Shown here: positions 47,093-63,937 of the stretch, one piece after another | Layout of the letters: each line of letters starts with the position of its first letter | How positions within the stretch are numbered: the stretch's first letter is position 1 | Source of the DNA: Hydrogenovibrio sp. SC-1 | GTDB taxonomy: Bacteria > Pseudomonadota > Gammaproteobacteria > Thiomicrospirales > Thiomicrospiraceae | Reading direction: 5' to 3' | NCBI RefSeq assembly: GCF_002848135.1 | Contig: NZ_PKGB01000012.1 | Location: forward strand, 1 to 64,000 | DNA: 64,000 bases | Translations under genes and position numbers: made by a program | The notes under the pieces: generated by a model | Databases searched by the model: none | What the model saw: only the letters and a program-made list of their open reading frames with translations | What the model was told of the DNA's origin: nothing

Positions 47093-48163
47093 ATGAAAAA
47101 TGAATCATCCACTTCAAACCCAACAGCCTTTGCCAGCATTCCAATGCGGTCCGTTGGTCCCCTAAAACTCATTGGAGATGTTGAAGACGACCATATCCTG
47201 GTTCCGTTAGCAACGTATGAAACCCCTTTGTGGCCTTCTGTGGACCGTGGTGCCCGCGTGACGCATCATGCAGGCGGTATTCGTGTAACTGTTATCGATG
47301 AACGCATGACACGGTCAATTCTGCTGGAAGCACCGAATGCTCATATTGCGCATCAAAAATGCCAGCAACTTAAAGCGAGTCAAGCTCAATTACAACAAGT
47401 GGTCTCTCAATCAAGCCACTATGCTAAATTACTGGACATTCATAGCCAGATAGTCGGGAAATTAGTGTATCTTAGGCTTGAATTTAATACAGGTGATGCC
47501 TCGGGTCACAATATGGTTACTAATGCGGCCGACCAATTAATCCCTTGGATTTTGCAGCAACACCCCGAATTAACCTATGTTTCCATTTCGGGCAACTACT
47601 GTACCGATAAAAAAGTGTCTGCTGTTAATGGTATTTTAGGACGCGGCAAGAATATTGTTTGCGAAACCACCCTTCCCCGCAAACTGGTGAAACGTTTCCT
47701 TAAAACAACTCCTGAAGCGATAATTGACTTACATATCAAAAAAGATCTGCTGGGCAGCATTATTTCTGGAGGTCTAAGAACGGCCAATGCCCATGTCGCC
47801 AATATGTTATTAGCATTCTACTTGGCAACCGGTCAAGATGCTGCCAATATCGTTGAAGGCTCTCAAGCCATTAATCATATTGAACTCACTCCGGATGGAG
47901 ACCTTTATTTTTCAACAACCTTACCGAATTTAATCGTCGGTACGGTTGGTAATGGGAAAGGTCTTGATTTTGTACTGCAAAACCTTAAACAGCTTAATTG
48001 CACTCAAACATCTGCCAGGCCTGGTGAAAATGCGCGTCGCCTAGCTTGTATTGCGGGTGCCACGGCGCTTTGCGGAGAATTATCGCTGTTAGCAGCTCAA
48101 ACCAACCCTGGTGAGCTCATGAATGCCCACCTTCGCCTTGAGCGACAAAAACATTCCGTCTAG
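47093..48163 (+). CDS. Hydroxymethylglutaryl-CoA reductase
   Basis: 356 residues, soluble, without the membrane domain of eukaryotic enzymes; makes mevalonate from HMG-CoA. Motifs are class I-like: catalytic Glu43 in PLATYETP, GDASGHNMVTNAADQL, Lys in SGNYCTDKKVSAVN (about 180), Asp in TGQDAANIVEGSQ (about 260), GTVGNGKGL, and a C-terminal His in MNAHLRLER. No Shine-Dalgarno is visible before the ATG, although this start precedes all conserved blocks. It opens a three-gene operon with IPP isomerase and HMG-CoA synthase. A palindrome copy lies inside. Confidence 0.93.
   Translation: MKNESSTSNPTAFASIPMRSVGPLKLIGDVEDDHILVPLATYETPLWPSVDRGARVTHHAGGIRVTVIDERMTRSILLEAPNAHIAHQKCQQLKASQAQLQQVVSQSSHYAKLLDIHSQIVGKLVYLRLEFNTGDASGHNMVTNAADQLIPWILQQHPELTYVSISGNYCTDKKVSAVNGILGRGKNIVCETTLPRKLVKRFLKTTPEAIIDLHIKKDLLGSIISGGLRTANAHVANMLLAFYLATGQDAANIVEGSQAINHIELTPDGDLYFSTTLPNLIVGTVGNGKGLDFVLQNLKQLNCTQTSARPGENARRLACIAGATALCGELSLLAAQTNPGELMNAHLRLERQKHSV
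48015..48024. repeat. CCAGGCCTGG palindrome, copy 14 (in HMG-CoA reductase gene)
   Basis: Perfect copy; here read in another frame (Ala-Arg-Pro-Gly). Confidence 0.8.
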
Positions 48164-48166
48164 AAG

Positions 48167-49198
48167 ATGAGCCACGCCCCAATCACACAACGCAAACAAG
48201 ATCATATTGATTGGATTCTTAAAGATGATCTCATTGAACGCAATCAATCTGGCTTTGATAAAATCAAACTGACTCATCGTGCCTTGCCTGAATGTGATTT
48301 TGCTGAAATTGATAGTCAAACACAATTTTTGTCAAGGCCGCTAGCCTTCCCCATGCTCATTTCGTCTATGACGGGTGGCGCCACCCAGCAATTAGCACAA
48401 ACCAATCGCCACCTTGCAGAAGCAGCTGAAGCCAGCCAAGTCGCGATGGCGGTCGGATCACAACGCACTCTAGTTGAGGATCAGGAAGCACTCCAGAGCT
48501 TCCAATTAAGACGCTATGCGCCAAACATTCCTTTAATCGCAAATATGGGTGCTGTTCAGCTCAATTACGGCTTTGGGTTTGATCAGGCAAAGCTCATGAT
48601 TGATACTTTAGAAGCTGATGCCCTTTTCCTTCATCTCAACCCACTACAGGAAGTAATTCAACCGGAAGGTGATACTAACTTTGCGAGATTAACCGATAAA
48701 ATTGAGCAACTAGCCAGCGAGCTATCGGTTCCTGTCATTTTAAAGGAAGTGGGATGTGGACTCTCAGCAACGGATATTCAGCTGGGGTTGAATGCTGGCA
48801 TTAAATGGTTTGATATCGCTGGGCGTGGCGGCACCTCCTGGAGCAGAATCGAAGCCAATAGAAGCAGTTCTACTTCAGAAAAATCACTCGGCGTCCTTTT
48901 TCAAGACTGGGGATTAACCACGCCTGAAGCACTAATGGCAGCGCGCCCCTTCCAGGATCAAGCAAACTTTATTGCTAGCGGCGGTATTCGCAATGGCATC
49001 GATATGGTTAAATCGGTTATAATAGGCGGCCAAATTTGTGGCTTAGCTGCACCTTTATTAAAACCCGCCCTGGAATCTTCGGCGGCAACCTATGAGAAAA
49101 TACAACAATTACATCAAGAATTTCGGACAGCGCAATTCTTACTTGGCGCGCCAACTTTGGCGGATTTATTTTTAAACGATGCGCTGATCGTATCGTAA
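48167..49198 (+). CDS. fni: Type 2 isopentenyl-diphosphate isomerase (FMN-dependent)
   Basis: 343 residues; interconverts IPP and DMAPP with reduced FMN. QRKQDHIDWILKDD at the start, FPMLISSMTGGA (about 60-71), LIANMGAVQLNYGFG, HLNPLQEVIQPEGDT, VILKEVGCGLS, WFDIAGRGGTSW and FIASGGIRNGIDMVKS are the family blocks. It starts 3 bp after the reductase stop. Type 2 isomerases usually go with mevalonate pathways in bacteria, as here. Confidence 0.96.
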   Translation: MSHAPITQRKQDHIDWILKDDLIERNQSGFDKIKLTHRALPECDFAEIDSQTQFLSRPLAFPMLISSMTGGATQQLAQTNRHLAEAAEASQVAMAVGSQRTLVEDQEALQSFQLRRYAPNIPLIANMGAVQLNYGFGFDQAKLMIDTLEADALFLHLNPLQEVIQPEGDTNFARLTDKIEQLASELSVPVILKEVGCGLSATDIQLGLNAGIKWFDIAGRGGTSWSRIEANRSSSTSEKSLGVLFQDWGLTTPEALMAARPFQDQANFIASGGIRNGIDMVKSVIIGGQICGLAAPLLKPALESSAATYEKIQQLHQEFRTAQFLLGAPTLADLFLNDALIVS

Positions 49199-49217
49199 CA
49201 GAAGACTGTTTTATTAG

Positions 49218-50384
49218 ATGAAAGTGGGAATCGACTTAATTCATTTTGCAACTTCCAATTACTATTTGGACCTGGAAACCTATGCGCAGGAAAAAGGCAC
49301 TGATCCTAATAAATACTTAATTGGTATCGGTCAAGAAAAGATGTCTATTGCCCCACCAGATGAAGACATTATCACTTTGTCAGCAAAAGCAGCAGCACCT
49401 ATTCTTGATAAGATTGATAAAAACACCATTACAGCCGTCTTATTTGCAACTGAATCAGGCGTTGATCAATCAAAATCAGCCGGCGCATTCCTACATGGAT
49501 TACTAGAGCTTCCAAATCGTTGTCGTGTTGTTGAATTTAAACATGCTTGTTATGCCGGTACTGCCGCCCTGCAAATGGCAACAAGCATGGTGAGAGCCAA
49601 CCCTAATGAGACCATTTTAGTCATTGCTGCAGATATCGCTAAATATGACATTGACTCTTCTGGAGAAGCAACGCAAGGTTGTGGTGCGGTTGCGATGCTG
49701 GTGACGAAAGACCCTCGAATATTAGCAATTGAACCGGGTTCGGGTTACTACACTGAAGATGTCATGGATTTCTGGAGACCTAACCATCGAAGTACCGCAT
49801 TAGTCGATGGAAAGTATTCAACTAAAGTCTATTTAAATAGTTTGAAGCAAGCATGGGAACATTTTACGGAATCAACTGGACGTAAATTCAGTGACATTGA
49901 TGCGTTTTGTTACCACATCCCATTTTCAAGAATGACAGAAAAGGCTCACAAAACCTTAGTTAAAAAAGTCGGAACCCCTGTTTCAGAAGCCTTATTTAAA
50001 TCACAAACCCAACCAGGTCAAGTCTATAATCGTTTAGTTGGAAACAGCTATAGTGCATCTCTATTTATTGGATTTTGTTCTTTTTTGGACAATGCCGTTC
50101 AAGACCTAAGTAATAAACGTTTTGGCTTTTTTAGTTATGGGTCTGGCTGTGTTGCAGAATTTTTTAGCGGACTCATCCAACCCAATTATCAACAACACTT
50201 GATGACAACAAGCCACCAACAACAAATTGCAAGTCGAAAAGCTTTAGATTATCAAACCTATTTAGAGTTCTATCATACAGATACGTTTGGCCAAAACAAT
50301 ATCGTCTTTAGCAAAAACAATCTTGGCCCATACCGTTTAATGGACATCCAAAACGACATTCGCCACTACGTAAAGACTTCTTAA
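49218..50384 (+). CDS. mvaS: Hydroxymethylglutaryl-CoA synthase
   Basis: 388 residues, bacterial MvaS; condenses acetoacetyl-CoA and acetyl-CoA. Catalytic Glu79 in FATESGVDQSKSA, nucleophile Cys111 in EFKHACYAGTAAL, His in YHIPFSRMTEKAHK (about 233). GNSYSASLFIGF and FFSYGSGCVAEFFSG close the thiolase fold. Last of the first mevalonate block, 19 bp after the isomerase gene. No thiolase gene follows. Confidence 0.95.
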   Translation: MKVGIDLIHFATSNYYLDLETYAQEKGTDPNKYLIGIGQEKMSIAPPDEDIITLSAKAAAPILDKIDKNTITAVLFATESGVDQSKSAGAFLHGLLELPNRCRVVEFKHACYAGTAALQMATSMVRANPNETILVIAADIAKYDIDSSGEATQGCGAVAMLVTKDPRILAIEPGSGYYTEDVMDFWRPNHRSTALVDGKYSTKVYLNSLKQAWEHFTESTGRKFSDIDAFCYHIPFSRMTEKAHKTLVKKVGTPVSEALFKSQTQPGQVYNRLVGNSYSASLFIGFCSFLDNAVQDLSNKRFGFFSYGSGCVAEFFSGLIQPNYQQHLMTTSHQQQIASRKALDYQTYLEFYHTDTFGQNNIVFSKNNLGPYRLMDIQNDIRHYVKTS

Positions 50385-50470: not shown

Positions 50471-50499
50471 AAAAAAAACCACAATCTAAAAGATTGTGG
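50471..50499 (-). terminator. Terminator of the six-gene envelope operon
   Basis: Stem CCACAATC / GATTGTGG with 5-nt loop and an eight-T run on the minus strand. It could also stop transcription from mvaS on the plus strand less efficiently. Confidence 0.85.
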
Positions 50500-50528
50500 C
50501 TTTCAATAGTGAATTACTCTAATCCAGA

Positions 50529-52100
50529 CTAGAACACCGACTTACATTGCTCAGTCGTTGTTGGAACCGCGGTTGTTGTCTCTACTAGTTCAAATGAATC
50601 TGCAAAATATTCTTGAATATACTCATTGGTTTCCAGGGACTTGTAAGATGCAGCAATACAAGATGTTGTTGCACCACTACACTCTGTAACGCCAGCTGGA
50701 TCAAGATTTTTTAGGGTGTAAGTACTACCCAGAACACTAATATAAGCAACAAATGTCTGTACCTGATCTTGTGAGAAACTTCCTTTAATCAAGTTATATT
50801 GAGTACCTTCTTTTTGACAAGCTGATACATTCCCGTCAGCCTGAAAATAAAATCGGAAACCATTAGTATCATTAGACATCTTTAAATGTTTACCACTAAA
50901 CGCATCAAATGCTTTAGTTGCACCAATATTTGCATTAAATGCTCCGCTGGCACTATTGGTTGCACTGACTAAAGTCGTTGTATAGTCTCTAGCTGTATAA
51001 TCAAAAGTATTATTTGTTCTAATAGCAAGGGCATTTTTAAGGCGATCTGCAGCATTTGCATCTAATGCTACGCTTTTAGCTACCTCAGCACTAAATAAGC
51101 TTTTCTTTAACTCTGCCAATGCAGGTGCTGCTGCAGGGCTGACTGCACAACCCGAAACATTATCTGTGTAACTATCACCTGAAACCGCTAACACACAATT
51201 TAAATACTTATTAAGCTCAGTGATCTCATTGGCCTTAAATGGATTCGTTTTCGATGTTTGCGTTGCAACGAAACTAAAAATGGATGAAGCTTTGGTTGAA
51301 ATTGCAGATAGTGGATCGGCACCACTGGTAAAGTCCGCATTTAATAATAATGCACGATACGTTGCCGGCAAGAAATCCTTCAATTTAGTCCCAGAATTTG
51401 CATCGACAAAAGATTGAGCAACAGCTTCTGCAAGCTTATGAAAGTGAATACTCATCTTAAATGCTCGTGCCTTATTCCCGACATTGGCATCAAATGGGTC
51501 AATTAGATTTGGATCTGGTGCATCACCAACCGCACGAGTTTGACTACCCAAAAAGCTTCCTAAAAATTCATTGAATTTGGCTTTAAACTCAGCCTTAGTC
51601 AACCCATTTGGTATATCTGCATCTGACAAGTTTTCAATTTCTTGATTCAAGGTTGAAATAGCAGTCACTTTTAAGCCACTAGTATTGTTATCCAATAATA
51701 AGCTCATCGCCGCATTATAGACTTGAGTTGTTAGTAAATCCCGCCCAGTTTCAACCCGGATAACACCACCATCTTTTAAAGCCGCATCACCCTGTAAACA
51801 ATTTCGCGAGGAAGGATTTTCGCAGTAATTTGTTCCATCTTTCGCAACTGAAAAATACCCATCCTTATCCGTAAAGGCACTAGGTTCGAACTCAGAATCA
51901 TATTGGCCGTTTTTATTTACATCAACATACACCGTAGCAAATGCGACATAGTCATCAACAACGGCCCCAGACATTTGTACCGTAGAAACAGATCCCTTAT
52001 CACTACTGCCTCCACCACAACTCGCTATAGCCACCAATAAAGCAGAAACCGAGGTAGCAATAAGTGATTTTTGAAATAAACTATTTGATATTTTCTTCAT
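50529..52100 (-). CDS. Large lipoprotein of unknown function
   Basis: 523 residues. Signal peptide and lipobox IASC (Cys about 28) followed by a Gly/Ser stretch. Residues 40-80 (SGAVVDDYVAFATVYVDVNKNGQYD, then DKDGYFSV) look like a small beta-sandwich with a Ca-binding Asp-rich loop, as in many surface proteins. The rest is largely helical (ALKDGGVIRVETGRDLLTTQVYNAAMSLLLD). Cysteines at several places may form disulfides. Last of a six-gene operon of envelope proteins. Function not recognised. Confidence 0.8.
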   Translation of the reverse strand: MKKISNSLFQKSLIATSVSALLVAIASCGGGSSDKGSVSTVQMSGAVVDDYVAFATVYVDVNKNGQYDSEFEPSAFTDKDGYFSVAKDGTNYCENPSSRNCLQGDAALKDGGVIRVETGRDLLTTQVYNAAMSLLLDNNTSGLKVTAISTLNQEIENLSDADIPNGLTKAEFKAKFNEFLGSFLGSQTRAVGDAPDPNLIDPFDANVGNKARAFKMSIHFHKLAEAVAQSFVDANSGTKLKDFLPATYRALLLNADFTSGADPLSAISTKASSIFSFVATQTSKTNPFKANEITELNKYLNCVLAVSGDSYTDNVSGCAVSPAAAPALAELKKSLFSAEVAKSVALDANAADRLKNALAIRTNNTFDYTARDYTTTLVSATNSASGAFNANIGATKAFDAFSGKHLKMSNDTNGFRFYFQADGNVSACQKEGTQYNLIKGSFSQDQVQTFVAYISVLGSTYTLKNLDPAGVTECSGATTSCIAASYKSLETNEYIQEYFADSFELVETTTAVPTTTEQCKSVF

Positions 52101-52121
52101 GACTAGCTCCTCAATCCTTTG

Positions 52122-53516
52122 TTAGAAATAAAACTCTAAGCCTAAGTTAAATTGCACCATTTTTGGAAGATCTATGGTTTCGTCTGTTGCAGAACTTAGA
52201 TTGCTTAATTTTGATAAATCACTCATTTCTTCAAAGGCAATATCTAGATTTAATGGTCCCCAGGACAAACCTGGCGCATAGAACTTACGTTTATCACCGG
52301 CTAGGTTCGAATGATAACTGATTCTAAAGTCTGGCACTAACGCATAATACCATTCATCACCAGCGGCATCGGTTGCATAGGAAGCACTCACCGACATCCA
52401 TTGTTGTTTTTGATTTAATAAATTCGAAGCGTCATTTAAGTCGGCTGAACCAGCTAGCGACCAATGACGATTTTTACTGTAATAAGCCCCTTCAATCCGC
52501 GCCTGAGGCGTTAATTCAACGGATTCACTTAGAGCATATTGGTTTGAAAAATATTTTTCTGTATAGGCTTGATTGGTTGTTCCGGCACCCAATTCATTAT
52601 AATTGAATTTTGGAGTGTTAATATTTTGTACCATTAACCCAGCCATCCAGTTTTCAGCAAACCATTGAGCCCCGATATCTAAACCAAAAGCATTTTCATT
52701 TTGATTAAGATCACTGTGATCACTTAAATCCGAAGCAATGGTAATATCTTCATTATTAGCAGTTTGGGTAAGGTATTTTTTAAAGGAGTTGACTGATTTG
52801 ACCAAACTGGCTTGAATCATTTTGGCTCTGAAGCCGACGGCCAAATGCCCACTATCATTTTGATAAAACTGATCTCCGTAAGTTAAAGCGACTTCCGTAG
52901 AGACAGCGGTCTTAAGATAAATCCCAGTTTTGACATCCAAGGCATTAACCAAATCATTATCGGTAAAAGAATTGCCCGATCCCGTTGCAACTAACTGGCT
53001 AGGATCGAATGTCACTGGACGGTCATCACTTAAAAGCGCACCCGTTCCTGAGGTTGCAAATGTCATTTCAACCCCAAATCCCCCTAGCTTATTATGCGTA
53101 AATACTAGGGGAAGGTTTCCTTGAGCATCCAATTGAAATGAGAAGTCATCACGAACTTTAGTAATCATCGAAACCAGCTCTTGCTCGAGTTCGGTTGCTT
53201 GTACCACTGCAGATTGTGTTGAGCTATTGAAACTTGTTAAAATTGGCTTAATATTATTAACGTACTGATCATTGAGTTCACCAAATCCTGCCTGCTGAAA
53301 CCTAAACCCGCCGGACAGCCCCATACCAAAATTATTCTCGACATGTAAATTCCCACCTATCCAAGCGGGATTAGCCGTACTAGAAAAAATCGTATGATTA
53401 TTACTGGCCTCCCCATACCCTAAATTTGACCCCGTCAGGAGAGGCTTTGATGCTGCCAAACTGGCAGAGCTTGATATAACCAACAGTGTTGCGAGCGTCA
53501 ACTTATTTAATCGCAT
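52122..53516 (-). CDS. TraF_2-type outer-membrane barrel protein
   Basis: 464 residues. Signal peptide ends near SSASLAA; the mature start NLGYGEASNNHTIFSSTANPAWIGG and the closing MVQFNLGLEFYF (terminal aromatic) indicate an outer-membrane beta barrel like the proteins filed as TraF_2 (PF13729). Despite that name no conjugation genes are here. The ATG at 53516 has AGAGGA 8 nt upstream; the ATG at 53525 overlaps that site. Fifth gene of the envelope operon, between two lipoprotein genes. Confidence 0.75.
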   Translation of the reverse strand: MRLNKLTLATLLVISSSASLAASKPLLTGSNLGYGEASNNHTIFSSTANPAWIGGNLHVENNFGMGLSGGFRFQQAGFGELNDQYVNNIKPILTSFNSSTQSAVVQATELEQELVSMITKVRDDFSFQLDAQGNLPLVFTHNKLGGFGVEMTFATSGTGALLSDDRPVTFDPSQLVATGSGNSFTDNDLVNALDVKTGIYLKTAVSTEVALTYGDQFYQNDSGHLAVGFRAKMIQASLVKSVNSFKKYLTQTANNEDITIASDLSDHSDLNQNENAFGLDIGAQWFAENWMAGLMVQNINTPKFNYNELGAGTTNQAYTEKYFSNQYALSESVELTPQARIEGAYYSKNRHWSLAGSADLNDASNLLNQKQQWMSVSASYATDAAGDEWYYALVPDFRISYHSNLAGDKRKFYAPGLSWGPLNLDIAFEEMSDLSKLSNLSSATDETIDLPKMVQFNLGLEFYF

Positions 53517-53539
53517 AGGTTCCATCCTCTTATAAGCAG

Positions 53540-54043
53540 TTAAGGGGTCATGCGCTGACGATAGGATTGTCCCTCCTCAGGCATAGGCATTGAATTCATT
53601 TTTTTATATTTTGCCATGTTTTTTTCCATTTGGGGTGCGAATGTACAATTTTTATTTTTAGCATTATCTAGTAAGAAGTGATGACGATCCGCAAGACTTT
53701 GAATTCGTTTCAATTCTGGCTGAGTAAACCCATCCAAAGTGGAACCATCAATATGATTATTGGCGGATGCACTACCAGACAAAAACGCCAAGACCATATC
53801 AACTATTGCTTGAATACCAAAAATACGTTTTTGACGCTCTTCTTTAATTTCAAACAATTCTTGTACATCTTTTTCGATAATTAACAACTTAGGTTTCAGT
53901 TGATCGCAACTCAGCCTCGAATCCCCTGGCTGGGAAACAGCAACAGGATCGAGGTTCACCTTTTTTTCAGGAGAAGATGAACACCCCGCCATCATTAAGA
54001 TTCCTGAGAACCCGATTACAGCTAAACGTTTTTTATTTTTCAT
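53540..54043 (-). CDS. Small lipoprotein of unknown function
   Basis: 167 residues. Lipobox MAGC (Cys about 21) followed by SSSPEKK. The mature part is helical with two Cys, a hydrophobic segment about 80-97 (FGIQAIVDMVLAFLSG) and RQRM near the end. GGAG before the ATG. It lies between two outer-membrane barrel genes, so an assembly or partner role for them is plausible but unproven. Confidence 0.75.
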   Translation of the reverse strand: MKNKKRLAVIGFSGILMMAGCSSSPEKKVNLDPVAVSQPGDSRLSCDQLKPKLLIIEKDVQELFEIKEERQKRIFGIQAIVDMVLAFLSGSASANNHIDGSTLDGFTQPELKRIQSLADRHHFLLDNAKNKNCTFAPQMEKNMAKYKKMNSMPMPEEGQSYRQRMTP

Positions 54044-54059
54044 TTGACTTTCTCCAATG

Positions 54060-55421
54060 TTAAAACGAAGCTGCTGTTGAAATAAACAGATTCATACTAT
54101 TAACTGAAACATTCTGAACACGGGTCGATGAATTAAATAGGTCAGCTTGACCTGAACCTTGTGAATAATTAATACCAACCGTTATATTCGACCCTTTGGT
54201 ATAACGAGACAAAGACAAAGCGCCACCAATTAAATTGACGTGGTCTTGCTTATAGGTTGCGACATCACTGTTAGTATTCGCATTATTGGTATAAACCCCG
54301 CCTCTAAGCGCCCAAGTCGGATTCAAGAAATACTCGACGCCCCCTGCTAGATTCCAAGTAGCTTCATAGACATCGGTTTTAGAAGCATATCCAAAGTCAG
54401 CGGAATAAAGCAACGCATCCGTTGCAAAATAGGCCACCCCTAAATTCAGTTCAACAGGCAACTGATTGTCAGGGTTTTTTTGTAATGCTGAAGATGTTGC
54501 CTGTCCTAAATCCAGTGGGTCCAGCTGATTGTTATAGGTTGAACAATTACTATAATCACCGGCAACGGTTGCACTCTCTGTACATAAGTTATAAGTTGAA
54601 TTTTCACGACTTTCTGGATTCTGACTAACCATAAAAGTGGTCTGAGCCATTAACCCCACAGAAACTTTCGGTGCCGGAGCCCACATAACCCCTAAACGTG
54701 GTTGAAAACCAAATTCTTCGGTCTGAATTTTTTGGTAATAGGTTCCGTCAAGTAATGCATTCTGCCCAGCATTCGTCTGGCCAGCAGGAATGACACCCGT
54801 TGCTTTAACATACTGCCAATTGGTCAGTTCTTTTTTACGCATATAGCCATAAAGCGTCAATCCGATTGAAACGTCCTTATTGACGGCAGTTGCATAAGAA
54901 ACCCCTGCTAAAGTCGTTGTATCCTGGTTGTTAAAATCAATTTGTTGATTATCGATTGTTGTCATTCCCAAACTTTGTGCTTTAGTGCTAGGCGTAAAGT
55001 TGGTAAATTGATCACTTTGATCTTCTAAGTCATAGTTTGGTATGGCAATTGAAAACCCAACCGTACTATCATCACCCAAAGGCTGTGTCGCACCAAAGTA
55101 ATTGGCCACCATCCCCGAAGAACTTCGTGTCCATTTGTGATTACTGCTATTAATATTACTGTACTCGGTTGTTTTGTAGTTATAAGCATTCACCGAACCA
55201 GAAATTTTAGGACTGCTTGCATAAACCACACCGGCGGGGTTGTAGTACAAACCCGACGCATCATCCGCGATCGCGGTATAGGCACCTCCCATCCCTGCAG
55301 AACGATCTCCCACTAGAATATCCTTATAATGATATTCATCGGCAAATGAAGCAGTCGAGATCACCGCGCCAGAAATGGCAATAAAAATTGATTTTTTTAA
55401 TTTTGAATTAGTGATATTCAT
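54060..55421 (-). CDS. OMPP1/FadL-like outer-membrane protein
   Basis: 453 residues. Signal peptide ends near STASFA. The mature part opens with VGDRSAGMGGAYTAIADDASGLYYNPAGV, the N-terminal plug-like motif of FadL/OMPP1-type barrels for hydrophobic substrates. It continues with alternating strands and ends in an aromatic residue (TAASF). CAGGAG 7 nt upstream fixes the ATG at 55421, which overlaps the M48 protease gene by 14 bp. Substrate unknown. Confidence 0.8.
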   Translation of the reverse strand: MNITNSKLKKSIFIAISGAVISTASFADEYHYKDILVGDRSAGMGGAYTAIADDASGLYYNPAGVVYASSPKISGSVNAYNYKTTEYSNINSSNHKWTRSSSGMVANYFGATQPLGDDSTVGFSIAIPNYDLEDQSDQFTNFTPSTKAQSLGMTTIDNQQIDFNNQDTTTLAGVSYATAVNKDVSIGLTLYGYMRKKELTNWQYVKATGVIPAGQTNAGQNALLDGTYYQKIQTEEFGFQPRLGVMWAPAPKVSVGLMAQTTFMVSQNPESRENSTYNLCTESATVAGDYSNCSTYNNQLDPLDLGQATSSALQKNPDNQLPVELNLGVAYFATDALLYSADFGYASKTDVYEATWNLAGGVEYFLNPTWALRGGVYTNNANTNSDVATYKQDHVNLIGGALSLSRYTKGSNITVGINYSQGSGQADLFNSSTRVQNVSVNSMNLFISTAASF

Positions 55422-56268
55422 TGAAACGCTCCTGTAACTTGGCCAGGTTGATATTTGATAAGCCATTTTGTTCAATTAAAGTGTCCATTTCATTAATGCG
55501 CTCAGTCAAAGGCGGATGGGTCTCAGATAAAATCTGCACCTGTTCTGACTGATTTTTTTCAATCCGATTAAAGTAACGCATCAACGCAGTTGGGTCATAG
55601 CCAGCATTTGCGAGAAGAAAAACACTTGTTCGATCTGCCTCAAACTCGTCCTTTTTAGACTGCAACCCTTTATTAAAGAGGATTTCCATTGTCTCATCCA
55701 AAGCCTCATTAAAAGCTTGAGTTGCAGCGCGCCCACCACCAGATAGGACTGCACCTAAGCTATCTTCAGCATTCCCCTTAGCGCTCCTTAACTTAACCTT
55801 CTTAACATAATGACGCAACTCAACGTGCCCAATCTCATGTGCCAAAATGGCTGCCAATTCGGACTCATCTTCAATATTATTTAAAGCGCCTTTTGTGATA
55901 AAAATATACCCCCCAGGAGCTGCAAAGGCATTGATAATATCGGTATCCAAAACAATAAAACGATATTTCAACTCTGAACGCTCACTCATTTGTGCAACAA
56001 CTTGCCCAACCTTATTCACGTATGCATTTAACTGATCATTTTTAACGGGAGGGTATTTCCCTAAGACCTTACTCGCCAATTCACGACCAAACAATATTTC
56101 CGTCGCAATATCGTCTTCGGTATAAGGCGCATCAGGAATCGTTGCAAACAATCGCTTATGGAAGTTACCTTCTGGTTGTGACATACCACTTGACATCACC
56201 GTCATGCCTAAAACAACCAGGCCTGCTTTTAGCAGCTTTGAGTCACTCACTCGCCATGTTGAATTCAT
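55408..56268 (-). CDS. M48-family metalloprotease, exported
   Basis: 286 residues. Signal peptide about 1-30. Zinc motif LAHEIGHVELRHYVKK (HExxH, about 138-142) and a downstream Glu in KKDEFEADRTSVFLLANAGYDP. It is like the catalytic half of BepA/YfgC, which cares for outer-membrane assembly, but lacks the long TPR half. AAGGAGG 6 nt upstream selects the ATG at 56268, whose A overlaps the stop of the SH3 gene (TGATG). A palindrome with one mismatch lies in the signal region. Confidence 0.88.
   Translation of the reverse strand: MNSTWRVSDSKLLKAGLVVLGMTVMSSGMSQPEGNFHKRLFATIPDAPYTEDDIATEILFGRELASKVLGKYPPVKNDQLNAYVNKVGQVVAQMSERSELKYRFIVLDTDIINAFAAPGGYIFITKGALNNIEDESELAAILAHEIGHVELRHYVKKVKLRSAKGNAEDSLGAVLSGGGRAATQAFNEALDETMEILFNKGLQSKKDEFEADRTSVFLLANAGYDPTALMRYFNRIEKNQSEQVQILSETHPPLTERINEMDTLIEQNGLSNINLAKLQERFNEYH
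56217..56226. repeat. Degenerate CCAGGCCTGG copy
   Basis: CCAGGCCTGC, one mismatch, in the signal-peptide region of the M48 gene. Confidence 0.5.
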
Positions 56269-56765
56269 CACAAACCTCCTTCAAGGGGTTGACTAAATTG
56301 CTCTAGCTCCTGACTGGTTACACTAAATGATTCCATATAGCGCACCCCTTCCATATTAACCACAACATCCCCTGCTTCTGCCCGAGCAGTTGCCGCTAAG
56401 CCTCTTGCCGCCGCCGCCGTAGTAATAGCAGAGGCACGACGCCTAACGTCTTTGAGCTCAGTCTCAGTGTCGCCGGGCAAAACGGTTATGCGATCATTTG
56501 GTGGCGTCTCTTTCACCAAAAATTTTGAGACCCAACCTTTCTTTTGGGCAAATGATACATTTAACCAAACACCTTTTTGATCAAGCACCTTAACTTGATC
56601 GCCCTTAACCAGCTCTGCTACCATCTCAGCCTGAAAATCAGGCTCTTTTAAAATTTTAGCTTTGTTGCTGGAGATATACTGTGGCTCAGCCTGCGCTGCA
56701 AACGGAATCAACACCATACTACTGAGCAATAAAGAAAGAAAATACTTTACTGGACGGTTTTTCAT
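56268..56765 (-). CDS. Exported SH3-domain protein
   Basis: 165 residues from the ATG at 56765. Signal peptide ends AAQA. A bacterial SH3 domain spans about 27-85 (SSNKAKILKEPDFQAEMVAELVKGDQVKVL; GVWLNVSFAQKKGWVSKFLV). It is followed by an Ala/Arg-rich helix (RRRASAITTAAAARGLAATARAE) and the end VTSQELEQF. Such proteins often sit beside M48 proteases and may bind peptidoglycan. First gene of the six-gene operon. Confidence 0.8.
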   Translation of the reverse strand: MKNRPVKYFLSLLLSSMVLIPFAAQAEPQYISSNKAKILKEPDFQAEMVAELVKGDQVKVLDQKGVWLNVSFAQKKGWVSKFLVKETPPNDRITVLPGDTETELKDVRRRASAITTAAAARGLAATARAEAGDVVVNMEGVRYMESFSVTSQELEQFSQPLEGGL

Positions 56766-56996
56766 AACTACATCCCTATTATTAAGAAACAACTTAGGCT
56801 TAATATTACCCCCAAAGGGCCGCTTATTCAATTACGTTTATAAAGCACTGAGTCTGGTTTCAAGTTGAAATAGCATGTTCTTGAAGATTCTGCTATATTC
56901 TGACTTAGGTTTAATCATAATCCTGTTCAGCTTAATCAAACCTTAAATAAAATAATAAATTTGAATTCATTATTTCGCTCTGGTAGGAGAAGCATT

Positions 56997-58043
56997 ATGC
57001 AAGTCTCATTTTCGACCATTATGATCATCACACTTTTTATCAGCTTCCTTTCTGCCTGTGGTGGCGATAGCAACTCTACAGATAACACAAACACCTCGCT
57101 TCAAAAATCGGCAAAAATTATCCTAAGCGCAAAATACGATACAACCAGCACCAAGTCAACGCGTGCCGAAACCACCCTTGGACAAGATGCAGACGGAGAT
57201 GGAGGGGTTTGGAGAGCGATTACCCCCTCTAGCTTTAAAGTGGCATTTAAGAGCATTACCCTGAATAACAAAAATGGAACCACCTATTCGCTCATACCCG
57301 ATACGGGAACACTTGCAAACAGCCAAGTCATCGATTTAAGTACCGATAGCTATGTCATTAATAGCGATGACATTCCCAACGGCGACTACGAAAGCATTTC
57401 TGCTGAAATTTACTACTACCAAATCACCATGCCTATAAACATCCCGGCGCAGTCTCAAGTTATCCGAGTCTATTTAAGTGATGACGACTTCAGCCAAGAA
57501 GGGAACTTAGGCCACCATCAAGGTGATATTACCCTAATTGGGGTCGACGGTACTGAAAAAGGCTGGGCAAAAGGTGGGGAAGCATGGTTACCATCAACCG
57601 CTAGCACAAACCGTTCAGTCGACCACAATGGCGCGGGTGGCGTAGACAGCGAAACGGGACACGCGAGAGGGTTCTATGGTGATAGCGACCTTTGGAATAC
57701 TGCCTTAACCCAAAATGGATTTACTTATTTTGACCCCAACCAAGGCAGTAACCAGGACATCTTTCAAATTGCCTCGCCTTTGAATCTGACTGTTTTAGAT
57801 GAAAGCCAATTCGAAATCAATGTTGCCTTCGACCTAACCAACGCTTGGCAATTTGAAGACTTTGATTTAGTAGATACGGCTGGTTATGAAGTATTCAACC
57901 CCGGTGCAGGAGGTATCAACGACACCAACAACCTTAACCCCGATGGCACTCAGTTACAAGATGCGGCCTGGTACAATAATACCGCTAAAAATGGTGCCGA
58001 ATGGACTCCCGTGTTTAATATGCCAACGGTCACTCAAAAGTAA
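56997..58043 (+). CDS. Lipoprotein of unknown function
   Basis: 348 residues. Lipobox LSAC (Cys about 21) followed by GGDSNSTDNTN. Residues 55-160 (AITPSSFKVAFKSITLNNKNG; NGDYESISAEIYYYQITMPI) look like a beta-sandwich of the kind seen in DUF4382-like surface lipoproteins, which is only a resemblance. Rich in Asp, Asn and Gly; possibly Ca-binding (DADGDGG). AGGAG 8 nt before the ATG at 56997. Divergent from the six-gene operon across a 230-bp shared promoter region. Confidence 0.75.
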   Translation: MQVSFSTIMIITLFISFLSACGGDSNSTDNTNTSLQKSAKIILSAKYDTTSTKSTRAETTLGQDADGDGGVWRAITPSSFKVAFKSITLNNKNGTTYSLIPDTGTLANSQVIDLSTDSYVINSDDIPNGDYESISAEIYYYQITMPINIPAQSQVIRVYLSDDDFSQEGNLGHHQGDITLIGVDGTEKGWAKGGEAWLPSTASTNRSVDHNGAGGVDSETGHARGFYGDSDLWNTALTQNGFTYFDPNQGSNQDIFQIASPLNLTVLDESQFEINVAFDLTNAWQFEDFDLVDTAGYEVFNPGAGGINDTNNLNPDGTQLQDAAWYNNTAKNGAEWTPVFNMPTVTQK

Positions 58044-58121: not shown

Positions 58122-58790
58122 CTAAGAGTCTTTTGTCAGTATTTCAATTTTCTTCAAAAGCTGTGCTGATTCATCAGCATCGGGTGTTCTGTCAGACAAA
58201 TACGTCATCCATCGAATACTTGCCAATTTGTAACCATAATCCGCTGTTGTTTGAATGATTGCCCTCAGCGTCTTGAGTGTAAGCATCTCCTTGGCAATAG
58301 AGGCAGAAACTAATTGAGACTCTAATGGCGATATTGCCAATACCAATTCATCTAGTTTGGTCGTCTTTCCTGACTGCCATTTTTTTGCAAAACCGTGGTA
58401 TTGTGAGGGCAGCTTGTCAACTTCGGACGCACTTAAACTACCTGACAAAAAATGATAATAAGCCTCTAATTCCGGCGCATTCACCAAAGGTTTTACCTGC
58501 AAATATAATGCACAATCTGACGCATTTAACACCGCAGCCTGAATGGCGCAATCAGCAATATAAACACGTGCTAAAGTTTCTAATTTGGCGCTTTGCTTGG
58601 CCTGACTGATTGCCTTTCTGCGCTCGCTTTCGGCTAAGATAACTCGACCTTCCAAGTAGTATTTTTGATAATTTTGAAAAGCAGAAACAGCTTTGACTTG
58701 CCAAGCGTTTTGAGGCTGACTAAACTGAATCGAGCATCCAGAAATAAACAATACAAAAACTCCAAAAGCGATTAAGACCCTTCTTTTCAT
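58122..58790 (-). CDS. Lipoprotein of the MCE operon
   Basis: 222 residues. Lipobox ISGC (Cys about 19), then a helical protein with three Cys (IADCAIQAAVLNASDCALYLQ) and no family recognised. It is not obviously a PqiC/ABC-auxiliary lipoprotein or MlaC. It starts on the base next to the stop of the MCE gene, last of four tightly packed genes, so it probably belongs to the same envelope transport machine. Confidence 0.75.
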   Translation of the reverse strand: MKRRVLIAFGVFVLFISGCSIQFSQPQNAWQVKAVSAFQNYQKYYLEGRVILAESERRKAISQAKQSAKLETLARVYIADCAIQAAVLNASDCALYLQVKPLVNAPELEAYYHFLSGSLSASEVDKLPSQYHGFAKKWQSGKTTKLDELVLAISPLESQLVSASIAKEMLTLKTLRAIIQTTADYGYKLASIRWMTYLSDRTPDADESAQLLKKIEILTKDS

Positions 58791-59726
58791 TTATGGCAGC
58801 TCCAGGCGATTTGAGTTTTCATCTTGCATCATATAATCAATTTTATCAATGAGCTGATTCGTTTTCTCCACGCTCTTCAACAACTGCTGCTTTAAAATCA
58901 AAATATCTTGATCGGTTCCACCAAGTGCTTGAACGGTGCTTTCCAGTGTATTTAATTTAAGTGTTACATCAGTCAGAATAGTCGATACTTGCGTCATAAT
59001 ATCTTTTGACGGCACCACTATGGCTGCATTTAAGTTTTCAACTAAGCCTGACACCCCTAAAATGGTTTTCTGCAATTCTTTAATGGATGCTTGGGTTGTA
59101 TTCAAGGTGTCTGACAGGGTTTGGCCATCTTCAGGATTACCCGTTAAGCTGGAAACGAATGAGGGGCTTTCCTTTAAATCTCGGATAATCACTTCTAAAT
59201 GACCGAGCGTTTGAAACAAGGCGCCCTCTGGGTTTGACACCTGTTCGGTAATTAATGAGAAATCTTCAACTATGGCGATCAACTGGTTCACAGTCGGTTC
59301 TAGCTTGATAATAATATCATTTATATCATCACTGACCGTCATCTCAACATCACTGCCATCAGCTAACAAAGGCGAACTTCGATCCGAAAGAATCTCAATA
59401 TAAGGAGATCCAATCAAAGGCTTTTTTAAAATAAGACGGCTATTTTCGGTAATCCACTTTCGATTCGTTTCGTTCACATAAAAACGTAAATTGACCAACC
59501 CCGTTTCTGTTAGATGAATATCATCAATATACCCCACCTCAAATCCCGACAATAGGAGCGGCATACCGACTTTAAAGGATTGCGCACTGGGGGTTGTAAA
59601 CTGGAAATGATATTTTTGGTCAAACACGCCTTTCTGGTAGAGCAAATAGCCCGTCAACCCTAAAGTCACCAAACCCAAAGTCAACATAAAAAATCCAACC
59701 GCTAATTTCAGTCTAAAATATGACAT
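58791..59726 (-). CDS. MCE-domain protein (MlaD-like)
   Basis: 311 residues. One N-terminal membrane helix (about 8-28), one MCE domain (about 38-115: FKVGMPLLLSGFEVGYIDDIHL; LILKKPLIGSPYIEIL) and a long helical C-terminal region (about 130-300). MCE proteins form hexameric rings that bind lipids between the membranes. It is longer than E. coli MlaD because of the helical tail. It overlaps the upstream ATPase-like gene by 19 bp. Confidence 0.9.
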   Translation of the reverse strand: MSYFRLKLAVGFFMLTLGLVTLGLTGYLLYQKGVFDQKYHFQFTTPSAQSFKVGMPLLLSGFEVGYIDDIHLTETGLVNLRFYVNETNRKWITENSRLILKKPLIGSPYIEILSDRSSPLLADGSDVEMTVSDDINDIIIKLEPTVNQLIAIVEDFSLITEQVSNPEGALFQTLGHLEVIIRDLKESPSFVSSLTGNPEDGQTLSDTLNTTQASIKELQKTILGVSGLVENLNAAIVVPSKDIMTQVSTILTDVTLKLNTLESTVQALGGTDQDILILKQQLLKSVEKTNQLIDKIDYMMQDENSNRLELP

Positions 59727-60172
59727 GTCTGTCCTTGATAATGCATTCGATTACTATTCAACTCTAATATTGAAATCGCCTTTGGGCTATCCAATAATGC
59801 AATCAGTGCTAAGGTTTGCTCAACCGCATCTGCATGCCCAAGCAATGACAAAGGTAAGACAATAAATATTTCATCTTTAGGCATTCTCTCTGCACGTAAT
59901 AACATCGTTGCAAACAACTCAAAATCGGAACAAGCACCAACCCGCTTACCTTCAATATGAGATAAATTCAATTTTGCTAATAGCCGACGGGCCAATGTCT
60001 GTGACGCCTTAATGGGCATAAACCGATGCACCTCATCCATTAAAGCAATATTCTCTTGCATACTTAAATTAGCAAGCAAGGGCGTTTTATCAGAGAGAAC
60101 CGCGCCCTCAGAGTGAATTCGAGTCCACGCTTCAATTTCGTCATAGCTATCAAAAAACCTTACACTAACCAT
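59708..60172 (-). CDS. Degenerate MlaF-like ABC ATPase lacking the P-loop
   Basis: 154 residues, against about 240-270 for MlaF ATPases. GAVLSDKTPLLANLSMQENIALMDEVHRF (23-51) corresponds to the Q-loop and following helix of MlaF (ALFTDMNVFDNVAYPL), but the Gln is missing. Residues 81-93 (CSDFELFATMLLR) sit where LSGGMARRAALAR lies, and 101-112 (EIFIVLPLSLLG) where the Walker B DEP would be. There is no Walker A, and the gene overlaps the permease by 13 bp, so no P-loop was cut off. It probably cannot hydrolyse ATP. Assignment is from hand alignment and operon position. Confidence 0.6.
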   Translation of the reverse strand: MVSVRFFDSYDEIEAWTRIHSEGAVLSDKTPLLANLSMQENIALMDEVHRFMPIKASQTLARRLLAKLNLSHIEGKRVGACSDFELFATMLLRAERMPKDEIFIVLPLSLLGHADAVEQTLALIALLDSPKAISILELNSNRMHYQGQTCHILD

Positions 60173-60945
60173 ATCAGCAACGATACCGCCTCTATCACAA
60201 AAAGCGCCACAAATAAACTGACCATCCCCTTCAAAACGGCAACGGGAATATCACTATAACAGCTACCGGTTTTCAAACCACTATGTATGGGTAACAACAT
60301 AATAAAAAACCCAAACGTCATGCTCTTTAACAGCAACATCAAAATATTATCAAATGACACTGCATTTAACAAAATACGCAAATAACTCGTCAATTCCATC
60401 TGCATAAAAAACAGTGAAAATAAATAACCGCTCACCAGCATAATGAACGAGAAAACAATCGCCAATCCGGTCACACTCACCACGCCACTTAGAATTCTAG
60501 GCAGAAACAAATAGTCAATCAGATTGACTTGATAGGAAGTTAGAGCATCCAATTCATGATTAACATGCATCAGGGATATCTCTGTATTCACTGCAGCACC
60601 AGACCTGAGTGCGACCAGTAACGCCGTAAAAAAAGGCGAAAACTCATTAAAAATAAAATAAACCAAAATACTACCGATTTCATTTAACAACCCCAATTCT
60701 GAAGCTAAAATGATTACTGAACCGATAATAATACTGCCAAAAATAAAGGCAATCAAAACAAAAACAGGCAGAACTTGAACCGCCGTAAAATATATCTGTT
60801 TAACCAGCACCATTCGCATAGCAGGATGATAACTTTGAGGCAAAAGCGCATGCCAAAAGACAGACAGTGCAAACCCAGCGACACTGACGGTTTTGTAAAA
60901 ACGTTTTAATGTAAGATCACCTAACTGTGCGACTTGATTTAACAT
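60160..60945 (-). CDS. MlaE-like ABC permease of the MCE operon
   Basis: 261 residues, five or six membrane helices. The MlaE-type block is diverged but visible: FTALLVALRSGAAVNTEISLMHVNHELDALTSYQVN (about 115-150), with the E-x(6-9)-E-x-DAL spacing of MlaE, and the PIHSGLKTG loop before the last helix. The ATG at 60945 is preferred; a TTG at 61002 is open. First gene of the permease / ATPase-like / MCE / lipoprotein set. Confidence 0.85.
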   Translation of the reverse strand: MLNQVAQLGDLTLKRFYKTVSVAGFALSVFWHALLPQSYHPAMRMVLVKQIYFTAVQVLPVFVLIAFIFGSIIIGSVIILASELGLLNEIGSILVYFIFNEFSPFFTALLVALRSGAAVNTEISLMHVNHELDALTSYQVNLIDYLFLPRILSGVVSVTGLAIVFSFIMLVSGYLFSLFFMQMELTSYLRILLNAVSFDNILMLLLKSMTFGFFIMLLPIHSGLKTGSCYSDIPVAVLKGMVSLFVALFVIEAVSLLIWLV

Positions 60946-61051
60946 ACCAATCTCAAATAGACCTTTAAAGCCAACTAAGCACCACCAGGAAGTATCTGGC
61001 AAATTATTTTATGATTGTAAACTAAATTTCTTCTCACTTTTGTTTAGACAT

Positions 61052-61974: not shown

Positions 61975-63015
61975 ATGAGAACCTGTTGCCAGACACCTGC
62001 CAAATTAATCCTGACCGGAGAACATGCTGTCCTATTTGGTACGCCTGCACTCAGCATGGCGGTTAATTTTTTAACCCAATGCGATATGGTATTTACTGAC
62101 AATACCCAACCAAAAAAATTATCGTTTAGCATCGCCCTCAACGACTATCGATCAACCCATCATTTTTCATTTCTTGAATGGCAAGACCAAATCATTCAAA
62201 TCCGATCTCGATATGCGCTGTATGAAAAAAATTCGCTCGCCATTCAAACGGTCTGTAGCAACCCTGTGGATCTAGTGCTCCTAAGCCTTTATTTTTTCGA
62301 CACCACCTACCCTCTTAAAAAAGGGCATTGGGACATTAAAATTCAATCAAAAATTCCTTTAGGAAGAGGGTTGGGCAGCTCTGCTTCAGTTATTATCAGT
62401 CTCCTACACAGTCTTTATATTCAGCACCAGTGCCCTATTATTGAAGAAGAAATTCTCAACCTCGCACAAAAAGTAGAATCCTTCCAACATGGTCATTCGA
62501 GTGGACTGGACACCACCACCATCTTTAAAGGGGGCTTAATCCATTTTCAGCATAAACATCCCATTCAGCAGCTAATTATGCAAAACTTTCATGGATGGTT
62601 AATTGATACAGGCAAACCCGACTCCACGACGGGACAGGCCGTCAGTCATGTTCATCAACAATTTCATCATCACCACGCTATTTGGCAAGCCTTTGACATG
62701 ACCACAACTAAAATTGAGCAGGCCTGGCAAGCCTCAGACGCAGTGAAATTAAAAGAAGCCATCACCGAAAATGAACAACTGCTAGAAAACATAGGCGTGG
62801 TTCCAGAAAGAGTTCAAGCCTTTATCAAACGCATTAACCAACACCCCAATAAAGCCGCAAAAATTTGTGGTTCTGGCAGTATTCAAGGCGACAAGGCTGG
62901 CGTCATCCTATGTCTTAGTCACCAACCCCCCACTGAACTGTGTGAAGAATTTGGATATACGCTGCTACCGCTAACACTGAATGAACAAGGAAGTCATTGT
63001 GAAGTGGTCTTCTAG
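61975..63015 (+). CDS. Mevalonate kinase (GHMP family)
   Basis: 346 residues. AKLILTGEHAVLFGTPALSMAVN (N-terminal GHMP motif, about 8-30), ATP loop IPLGRGLGSSASVIISLLHSL (about 123-143), catalytic Asp in HGHSSGLDTTTIFKGGLIHF (about 172-191), and the C-terminal glycine-rich AAKICGSGSIQGDKAGV. The SSGLDTTT form matches mevalonate kinases rather than phosphomevalonate kinases. Phosphorylates mevalonate at C5. It overlaps the next GHMP kinase gene and opens the second mevalonate block. Confidence 0.85.
   Translation: MRTCCQTPAKLILTGEHAVLFGTPALSMAVNFLTQCDMVFTDNTQPKKLSFSIALNDYRSTHHFSFLEWQDQIIQIRSRYALYEKNSLAIQTVCSNPVDLVLLSLYFFDTTYPLKKGHWDIKIQSKIPLGRGLGSSASVIISLLHSLYIQHQCPIIEEEILNLAQKVESFQHGHSSGLDTTTIFKGGLIHFQHKHPIQQLIMQNFHGWLIDTGKPDSTTGQAVSHVHQQFHHHHAIWQAFDMTTTKIEQAWQASDAVKLKEAITENEQLLENIGVVPERVQAFIKRINQHPNKAAKICGSGSIQGDKAGVILCLSHQPPTELCEEFGYTLLPLTLNEQGSHCEVVF
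62718..62727. repeat. Degenerate CCAGGCCTGG copy
   Basis: GCAGGCCTGG, one mismatch, in the mevalonate kinase gene, read Gln-Ala-Trp as in alaS. Confidence 0.45.
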
Positions 63016-63937
63016 CGCTCCTGCCAACCTCATGTTAATGGGAGAACATAGCGTGGTTTATGGGCACACCGCAATTGCGTGTGCCCTCTCACAAAGAATA
63101 CACATTGATTGGCAAACCCGAGAGGATGATCAAATTCTCATTCAATCTACGCTGGGACACTATCAAACAACACGTCAAGCCCTACCAGAATGTCATGCAC
63201 CCTCAAAACTCATTTGGGTTATCCGCTGCCTACAACACTATCAAATCAAACTTAAAACTGGATTGAGCATCACCATCAAAAGTGATTTCAGCGACACACT
63301 GGGCCTCGGTAGCTCCGCCGCCGTTTTGGCTGCAATGCTTGGGGGGCTGGATTATTTTGTTGCCGATAAACCCGTTTCCTTAGGGCAACAATTCGCCACC
63401 GGACTCAAAATCATCCACAAAATTCAAGGCCGGGGTTCCGGCACCGATTTGGCGGCCAGTTTACATGGCGGTATTATTCATTTTCAGCCGAAAACACAAC
63501 AGATTGACCAGCTCGCCACCCACCTCGATTTATCGTTGGTTTACTGTGGCTATAAAACCCCGACCGCAGAAGTCCTCCAACAGGTCGTGCAAGATTGGGC
63601 CGAATCACCTGCACAATTACAAAAGCTTTATCAGCTTATGGGTGACACCACTCAACTCGCCTATCATGCACTTTGCCAACAGAATTGGAATCAGTTTTCG
63701 CAGCAACTTAATCGTTACCAAGGCTTAATGGACACCTTAGGCGTCAATGATGCGACTTTATCGCATATTGTTTATTCACTGCGTCAAGACCCCAATATAT
63801 CCGCCAGTAAAATTTCTGGGTCTGGTCTAGGCGATTGTGTGATTGCATTGGGCAAAATGTCTGAAGACACCTTAACTGACTACCAAAAAATTCACATCCA
63901 AGTCCAACCCCTTGGTCTAGATATTCAACCTTTATGA
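62999..63937 (+). CDS. Second GHMP kinase, probable phosphomevalonate kinase
   Basis: 312 residues from GTG. SAPANLMLMGEHSVVYGHTAIA at the start, LGLGSSAAVLAAMLGGLDYF as ATP loop, GRGSGTDLAASLHGGIIHF with the probable catalytic Asp, and SKISGSGLGDCVIAL near the end. The GSGTDLAAS form is closer to phosphomevalonate kinases, and a pathway with one mevalonate kinase upstream needs one. A second mevalonate kinase is the alternative. The GTG at 62999 has AAGGAAG 5 nt upstream; an ATG at 62981 lacks a site. Either start lies inside the preceding gene, suggesting translational coupling. Confidence 0.75.
   Translation: MKWSSSAPANLMLMGEHSVVYGHTAIACALSQRIHIDWQTREDDQILIQSTLGHYQTTRQALPECHAPSKLIWVIRCLQHYQIKLKTGLSITIKSDFSDTLGLGSSAAVLAAMLGGLDYFVADKPVSLGQQFATGLKIIHKIQGRGSGTDLAASLHGGIIHFQPKTQQIDQLATHLDLSLVYCGYKTPTAEVLQQVVQDWAESPAQLQKLYQLMGDTTQLAYHALCQQNWNQFSQQLNRYQGLMDTLGVNDATLSHIVYSLRQDPNISASKISGSGLGDCVIALGKMSEDTLTDYQKIHIQVQPLGLDIQPL

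Follow-up and report, generated by a model that had tools for sequence, protein, structure and literature searches.

The 64,000-nucleotide stretch analysed here (the window; positions 1 to 64,000 of contig NZ_PKGB01000012.1 of Hydrogenovibrio sp. SC-1) carries on its minus strand a tight array of six open reading frames (ORFs), g1 to g6, running from 56765 to 50529. All six products look exported, as read from their translations. A CHASE2-adenylate cyclase, the only CHASE2 protein found in this genome, is encoded 32 kb from the operon. The main observation is a genomic linkage between one clade of such cyclases and the first three operon genes, which encode an SH3 protein (g1), an M48 metalloprotease (g2) and a FadL-type outer-membrane barrel (g3).

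ORF coordinates and sequence show that the operon is real, and bear out a first-pass annotation of the same DNA that had placed six minus-strand genes here, tightly spaced, with ribosome-binding sites and one terminator. Neighbouring genes either overlap or are separated by 14–23 bp. Overlaps are 1–4 nt for g1/g2, depending on the g2 start chosen (ATG at 56268, with GTG at 56271 also possible; end at 55408), and 14 nt for g2/g3. Gaps are 16 for g3/g4, 23 for g4/g5 (14 with an alternative g5 ATG at 53525) and 21 for g5/g6. Each of the six starts is preceded by a purine-rich ribosome-binding site, read by eye in the sequence. A single terminator-like hairpin follows g6; six such sites were found in the region against a shuffle mean of 5.9, and this one is distinct by length and place only. 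The scan listed no sigma-70-like promoter site upstream of g1 (56766–56960), and promoter-like sites in the region showed no excess (15 versus 17.4 in shuffles). The six genes likely share one transcript. Compared with the syntenic copy in a related genome (G003), the ratio of nonsynonymous to synonymous substitutions (dN/dS) was 0.02–0.11, at dS values near saturation (1.6–3.1), indicating that all six genes are maintained as proteins under purifying selection.

Table 1. Coordinates of the operon genes, the cyclase gene and the hairpin within the window.
Feature	Positions	Strand	Basis
g1, periplasmic SH3_3 protein, 165 aa	56268..56765	-	PF08239, E 3.7e-8, above cut-off
g2, secreted M48 metalloprotease, 286 aa from ATG	55408..56268	-	PF01435, E 1.5e-31
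g3, FadL/TodX-type outer-membrane barrel, 453 aa	54060..55421	-	PF03349 (Toluene_X), E 4.3e-12
g4, small lipoprotein, 167 aa	53540..54043	-	Lipoprotein by N-terminus reading; no family above cut-off (Pfam, NCBIfam)
g5, TraF_2-type outer-membrane protein, 464 aa	52122..53516	-	PF13729, E 1.8e-31
g6, lipoprotein, 523 aa	50529..52100	-	Lipoprotein by N-terminus reading; no family above cut-off (Pfam, NCBIfam)
Terminator-like hairpin after g6	50474..50504	-	14-pair stem and T tail, 25 bases past g6 stop
CHASE2-adenylate cyclase, 734 aa	16529..18733	+	PF05226 and PF00211

Core genes g1-g2-g3 are contiguous on one strand in the window, and their distribution was followed in 369 Gammaproteobacteria (the class sample). 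Scoring covered the best first-look candidates of each genome, up to 4 for g3, 10 for g1 and 3 for the cyclase, such that an orthologue may have been missed. The g3 profile matched strongly in 14 of the 369 genomes (E 3e-81 or better) and weakly in two more. The g1 profile picked out the same 14, with E values up to 7.5e-26 and a gap to 4.9e-13 thereafter; at E ≤ 1e-6 it matched 52 genomes, 38 of them more weakly. In both profiles the window was the sole row from a positive class genome. A profile of the cyclase clade again recovered the same 14 genomes. Thirteen scored at least 906 bits, and in G066 the two ORFs that make up a split gene gave 553 and 347 bits; the best match outside the 14 reached 502 bits. 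CHASE2 proteins of any kind occur in 202 of the 369 genomes, so the association is with one clade of CHASE2 cyclases.

The 14 positive genomes span nine families. In 12 of them the cyclase gene lies directly upstream of SH3-M48-barrel, as it also does in a gammaproteobacterial metagenome-assembled genome (MAG; L056), the usual order being cyclase-SH3-M48-barrel and the upstream protein having about 720 residues. All five upstream proteins scanned with Pfam (L074, L075, L056, L084 and, as two ORFs, L079) carry CHASE2 and adenylate/guanylate cyclase domains. Contigs of G223 end between SH3 and M48. In G271 the cyclase lies on contig C73 and the operon on C106; there and in the window genome the genes are unlinked or far apart, and all are retained. 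That the genes are kept together though no longer adjacent argues for a joint function, with kinship among the genomes uncorrected for. In a phylum sample of 246 genomes that shares members with the class sample, the only strong g3 match was the window's own, with weak ones (E 1.6e-12 to 5e-11) in four genomes, so that the form with the barrel may be restricted to Gammaproteobacteria. Among 55 related genomes, the window genome (G000) included, cyclases of at least 56% identity were found in five (G000, G003, G013, G014 and G019). Strong g3 matches occur in the first four of these and in no other of the 55, with one further weak match; a scan limited to close relatives gave three relatives of g3.

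The window cyclase exceeds the curated cut-offs for both its domains (CHASE2, 164 versus 26.3 bits; Guanylate_cyc, 83.5 versus 21.9). Its identity to 11 module-adjacent cyclases is 38–44%, against no more than 33% to the remaining full-length CHASE2 proteins of that set outside its own family group. A midpoint-rooted tree of 57 proteins united five cyclases from the window genome's family with the 11 module-adjacent ones in one group of 16 (100/100 support), apart from the 41 other CHASE2 proteins. By these comparisons, the window cyclase is orthologous to the one that other families encode immediately upstream of g1–g3. Over 15 loci, pairwise distances of cyclase and g3 are correlated (r 0.71), mostly a reflection of common descent, and the correlation carries no weight here. 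Residues invariant over 16 aligned rows are D483 and D527, which we take to be the metal-binding aspartates, K523 and T597, presumably the specificity pair, and N604 and R608, presumably transition-state residues. Lys and Thr at the specificity positions are usual for bacterial adenylate cyclases; cyclic GMP, in place of cyclic AMP (cAMP), is a possible product. PADLOC models of Pycsar cyclases matched the catalytic domain (best E 8e-27). This was read as homology shared among class III cyclases, and a defence role was rejected.

Core modules in other genomes are accompanied by variable genes. Two genomes of a single family have chemoreceptor genes next to their cyclase module (L077:13548-15533 and L085:1-1514), the former with HAMP and MCP signal domains by Pfam and the latter recognized by N-terminal likeness, and CheW-like genes, named by gene reading, occur near the module in some other genomes. 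Both G013 and the MAG L056 carry SH3-M48-barrel without g4 and g5. Following the barrel gene in G013 is one for a lipoprotein of 1684 aa that is rich in cadherin and Ig-like domains; its residues 41–158 resemble g6 residues 38–151 (34%). The M48 protein of the same module (L050:6666-8546) has about 340 extra C-terminal residues with no Pfam match.

SH3-M48 pairs were also found apart from the barrel. Nine of the 38 weaker SH3 loci were read, G366 and G323 being chosen for an adjoining CHASE2 match and others for a match across the whole profile, so that counts from this non-random choice give no rate. Five of the nine (G366, G323, G213, G276 and G142) carry consecutive cyclase, SH3 and M48 genes and no adjoining g3 match. 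The CHASE2 cyclases of these triads have 614–705 residues, four being assigned by Pfam domains and that of G323 by profile only. The barrel-free triads suggest cyclase-SH3-M48 as the basic unit, with the barrel an addition in one clade.

The full operon is far rarer than its core. Of the 55 related genomes, just two, the window genome and G003, have all six genes together, and the six were therefore rejected as the unit of one system. The first-pass annotation had named rare co-occurrence of the six families as a finding that would speak against its reading; such rarity is largely what was seen for the full set. Matches to g4 were found in two of the 55 (the window genome and G003) and to full-length g6 in three (these two and G014), its N-terminal domain alone occurring in seven more. 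G014 holds a partial set, with g2, g3, g5, g6 and a legible g1-type tail at the contig edge. A Thiotrichales MAG (L055) has another partial set, g3-g4-g5-g6, on a contig that starts with g3; this set includes a relative of g6 over most of its length. Relatives of g5 are more widespread (16 of 55) and lie outside the operon in 13 of these genomes (loci L037–L049), nine of the 13 with a DNA polymerase I-like ORF, so named by reading, close by. All 11 sampled genus members have g5 (TraF_2) matches, outside the operon in nine. With the full set rare and g5 relatives mostly elsewhere, g5 looks like a recruit into the operon and g4–g6 like a lineage extension of it.

The envelope character that had been assigned to the operon holds, with SH3_3, Peptidase_M48, Toluene_X (FadL) and TraF_2 each scoring above its Pfam cut-off and two products lipoprotein-like. 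The C-terminal tail of g1 (RRASAITTAAAARGL ... YMESF ... E..F) is conserved in four aligned orthologues. In g2, the HExxH zinc motif and downstream glutamate (H145, E146, H149 and E209, numbered from the GTG start) are invariant over five aligned rows. Its nearest solved relatives by Protein Data Bank (PDB) sequence are the M48 peptidase 3c37 and BepA. Assignment as BepA itself was rejected (NCBIfam M48_BAM_BepA, 99.1 against a cut-off of 570), the match covering profile positions 43–252 of 483 and g2 being without the TPR half; so was LoiP (M48_lipo_LoiP, 59 against 365). No lipobox cysteine was seen in the g2 sequence. The PF03349 score of g3 (45.7 versus a gathering cut-off of 29.7) places it in the FadL family, and its N-terminal NPA motif (N61, P62 and A63) is invariant over 18 aligned rows. 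A 14-strand barrel with an N-terminal hatch, as in FadL, is putative for g3: a structure model built from four rows is of low confidence (mean predicted local distance difference test score, pLDDT, 52.7; first 68 residues below 50), and its PDB matches to FadL and TodX, with TbuX also matched, reach a query template modelling (TM) score of 0.40–0.49 at 11–15% identity. TraF_2 membership of g5 is clear (PF13729, 109.8 versus 25). A relationship between g3 and g5 was unsupported (hhalign probability 13%). The N-terminal domain of g6, of about 70 residues, is also found on other proteins. Three of these are encoded in the same genome (G000 C3:28721-30042 and C6:56370-56576), two of them as neighbours near genes read as prepilin-like. 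A phage origin was rejected, PHROGs matches being weak except for one of the M48 protein to a family of unknown function. A defence origin was likewise rejected, PADLOC giving nothing for g1 and g3–g6 and only E 0.004–0.009 for g2.

The first-pass annotation had proposed an outer-membrane assembly-and-uptake module. Its operon and its envelope nature stand, whereas the link between the g1–g3 core and a CHASE2-adenylate cyclase points to signalling rather than to a pure assembly-and-uptake machine; hydrophobic uptake through the FadL-type barrel could be the sensing step. We lean, by a little, towards g1–g3 being the envelope half, and the CHASE2-adenylate cyclase the other half, of a module for cAMP signalling across the envelope. 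The FadL-type barrel would serve as outer-membrane input, admitting or binding an external, probably hydrophobic, signal or reporting outer-membrane state. The periplasmic SH3 protein, with its conserved tail, would act as adaptor to the CHASE2 domain, perhaps anchored to peptidoglycan. M48 would gate the signal by proteolysis, its target for processing or clearance being the SH3 adaptor, the ligand or a defective barrel. CHASE2 would be the periplasmic sensor, and the cyclase would convert the signal to cytoplasmic cAMP. In the window lineage the operon would have gained g4–g6, a TraF_2 barrel and two lipoproteins, probably widening the surface part. A fully specified relay is offered tentatively and as the doubtful version of this scheme. 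In it the channel would admit a hydrophobic signal, gated through proteolysis by SH3 and M48, and a CHASE2 cyclase dedicated to the task would turn it into cAMP; the triad would be the older form, and the window operon a lineage version whose surface part grew by two lipoproteins and a second barrel.

The mechanism is proposed by analogy with two described systems. In Sinorhizobium meliloti, the outer-membrane protein NsrA is required, with cognate CHASE2 cyclases, for perception of plant signals (PMC7529298, PMC13001267). This NsrA-CyaK/CyaD1/CyaD2-Clr pathway is the closest precedent, sharing an outer-membrane β-barrel, inner-membrane CHASE2 adenylate cyclases and cAMP output (PMC7529298, PMC13001267). 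It is an alphaproteobacterial pathway, and the consulted portions of the reports mention no SH3 or M48 partner (PMC7529298, PMC13001267). The BiofilmReg operon of Burkholderia contaminans encodes a CHASE2 sensor with a LysM-FecR protein, a parallel to the SH3 partner here (PMC5192318). Unlike the cyclase module, it has as output a histidine kinase with a response regulator in place of a cyclase, and M48 and a barrel go unmentioned in the consulted part of the source (PMC5192318). A pair in magnetotactic bacteria, mtxA and a CHASE2/cyclase gene, again places another gene next to a CHASE2 cyclase, but the excerpt consulted describes it with TPR and Ig-like domains and with no SH3, M48 or barrel (PMC4439547). 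In open-access literature searches, judged by titles and the starts of abstracts, no description of CHASE2 cyclase, SH3, M48 and FadL-type barrel together, or of a system composed like the operon, was found, in agreement with the earlier statement that no described system has this composition. If the signalling proposal is true, one cyclase clade would gain named partners (SH3, M48 and FadL-type barrel) in nine sampled gammaproteobacterial families. The ligand and its route across the envelope would become directly testable, and the NsrA idea of an outer-membrane barrel feeding a CHASE2 cyclase would extend from plant symbiosis to other bacteria.

Several observations weigh against the signalling proposal. 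The cyclase is not adjacent to SH3 in the window, where 32 kb separate them, nor in G003, G013 and G014. G019 has a cyclase (56% identity) without g3, in an assembly of about 150 contigs with the cyclase on a 5.2-kb contig. Among the weaker SH3 loci, G296 has SH3-M48 with neither a CHASE2 cyclase nor a CHAT-TPR protein beside it. In G317 (L171:2045-8998) the neighbour of SH3-M48 is a TPR-CHAT protein, 2318 aa or longer, rather than a CHASE2 cyclase, and in G122 and G157 SH3 stands alone, with neither M48 nor CHASE2 cyclase beside it. Thresholds for the class counts (g1 E 1e-25, g3 E 1e-80, cyclase about 900 bits) were set after the gaps had been seen. The 16-row cyclase profile held 10 of the 13 other positive genomes, making its count partly circular, with G271, G066 and G202 outside the profile; the 14-of-14 match also ignores phylogenetic kinship. 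CRP-like sites in the window are at chance level (29 found, 30 expected). NsrA is larger than g3, with its barrel portion at residues 600–1200, and the two are likened by description only (PMC7529298, PMC13001267). The first-ranked PDB match of the low-confidence g3 model is a component of the Bacteroidota β-barrel assembly machinery (BAM) complex (9hiv); FadL, TbuX and TodX rank below it.

This last match would suit outer-membrane assembly or quality control, in which a BepA/LoiP-like M48 protease and the SH3 protein fold or clear barrels and lipoproteins while the cyclase reports on or regulates the process. The exported look of all six products, the M48 peptidase domain shared with BepA and LoiP, albeit at scores below the family cut-offs, and the PDB sequence likeness to BepA are consistent with such a role. 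The distance of g2 from both known proteases (no TPR half, no lipobox cysteine seen, scores far below both NCBIfam cut-offs) argues against it, as do the triads with no adjoining g3 match, in which this barrel is unneeded as client, and the tracking of the module by one specific cyclase clade. We regard assembly or quality control as unlikely. Hydrophobic uptake, with g3 a channel of the FadL/TodX type carrying lipids, hydrocarbons or quinones, g5 and the lipoproteins accessory and the cyclase regulatory, seems less probable still. It accords with the family-level PF03349 match that g3 shares with FadL, TodX and TbuX, with the invariant NPA motif, which is the motif deleted in FadL structure 2r4o, and with MlaE and MlaD relatives nearby (58791–61002). 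From these channels g3 differs in the low identity of its low-confidence fold matches and in a genomic context of signalling genes. Neither an SH3 protein nor an M48 protease would be expected as part of an uptake system. The operon contains no degradation gene, the neighbourhoods in other genomes not having been searched for such genes.

Shared transcription of six envelope genes without joint function is improbable for the set as a whole. The rarity of the full set and the placement of g5 mostly elsewhere speak for it, and it may hold for g4–g6; the g1–g3 order is kept in nine families together with the cyclase. We give least credence to export resembling the type IX secretion system (T9SS), with g3 a PorV-like shuttle, g5 PorP/SprF-like and g6 the exported cargo. 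The g5 protein just passes PorP_SprF (PF11751; 25.5 versus 22.3, E 1.1e-5), far more weakly than TraF_2, and the genes after g3 in G013 and G066 encode large or other lipoproteins. PorV membership of g3 was rejected on its sub-threshold NCBIfam score (PorV_fam, 32.8 versus 90), g5 reaches 17.1 against 90.55 for T9SS_PorP_fam, and g6 matches no sorting-domain family in Pfam or NCBIfam.

The operon stretch is flanked by mevalonate-pathway genes (window 47093–50384 and 61975–63937, plus L051:6946-7959 beyond). One flank holds HMG-CoA reductase-, IDI-2- and HMG-CoA synthase-like genes, and the other GHMP kinases and diphosphomevalonate decarboxylase; the decarboxylase was assigned by Pfam and the other names by sequence reading. 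MlaE- and MlaD-like genes lie at 58122–61002 with a lipoprotein-like gene. Between them, in the place of the ABC ATPase, is a 154-aa ORF with no Pfam match at E 0.01, which may be a degenerate ATPase. Divergent from the operon is a 360-aa lipoprotein-like gene (56961–58043) whose product matches no family above cut-off in Pfam or NCBIfam, and which is kept beside the operon in G003 at 72% identity.

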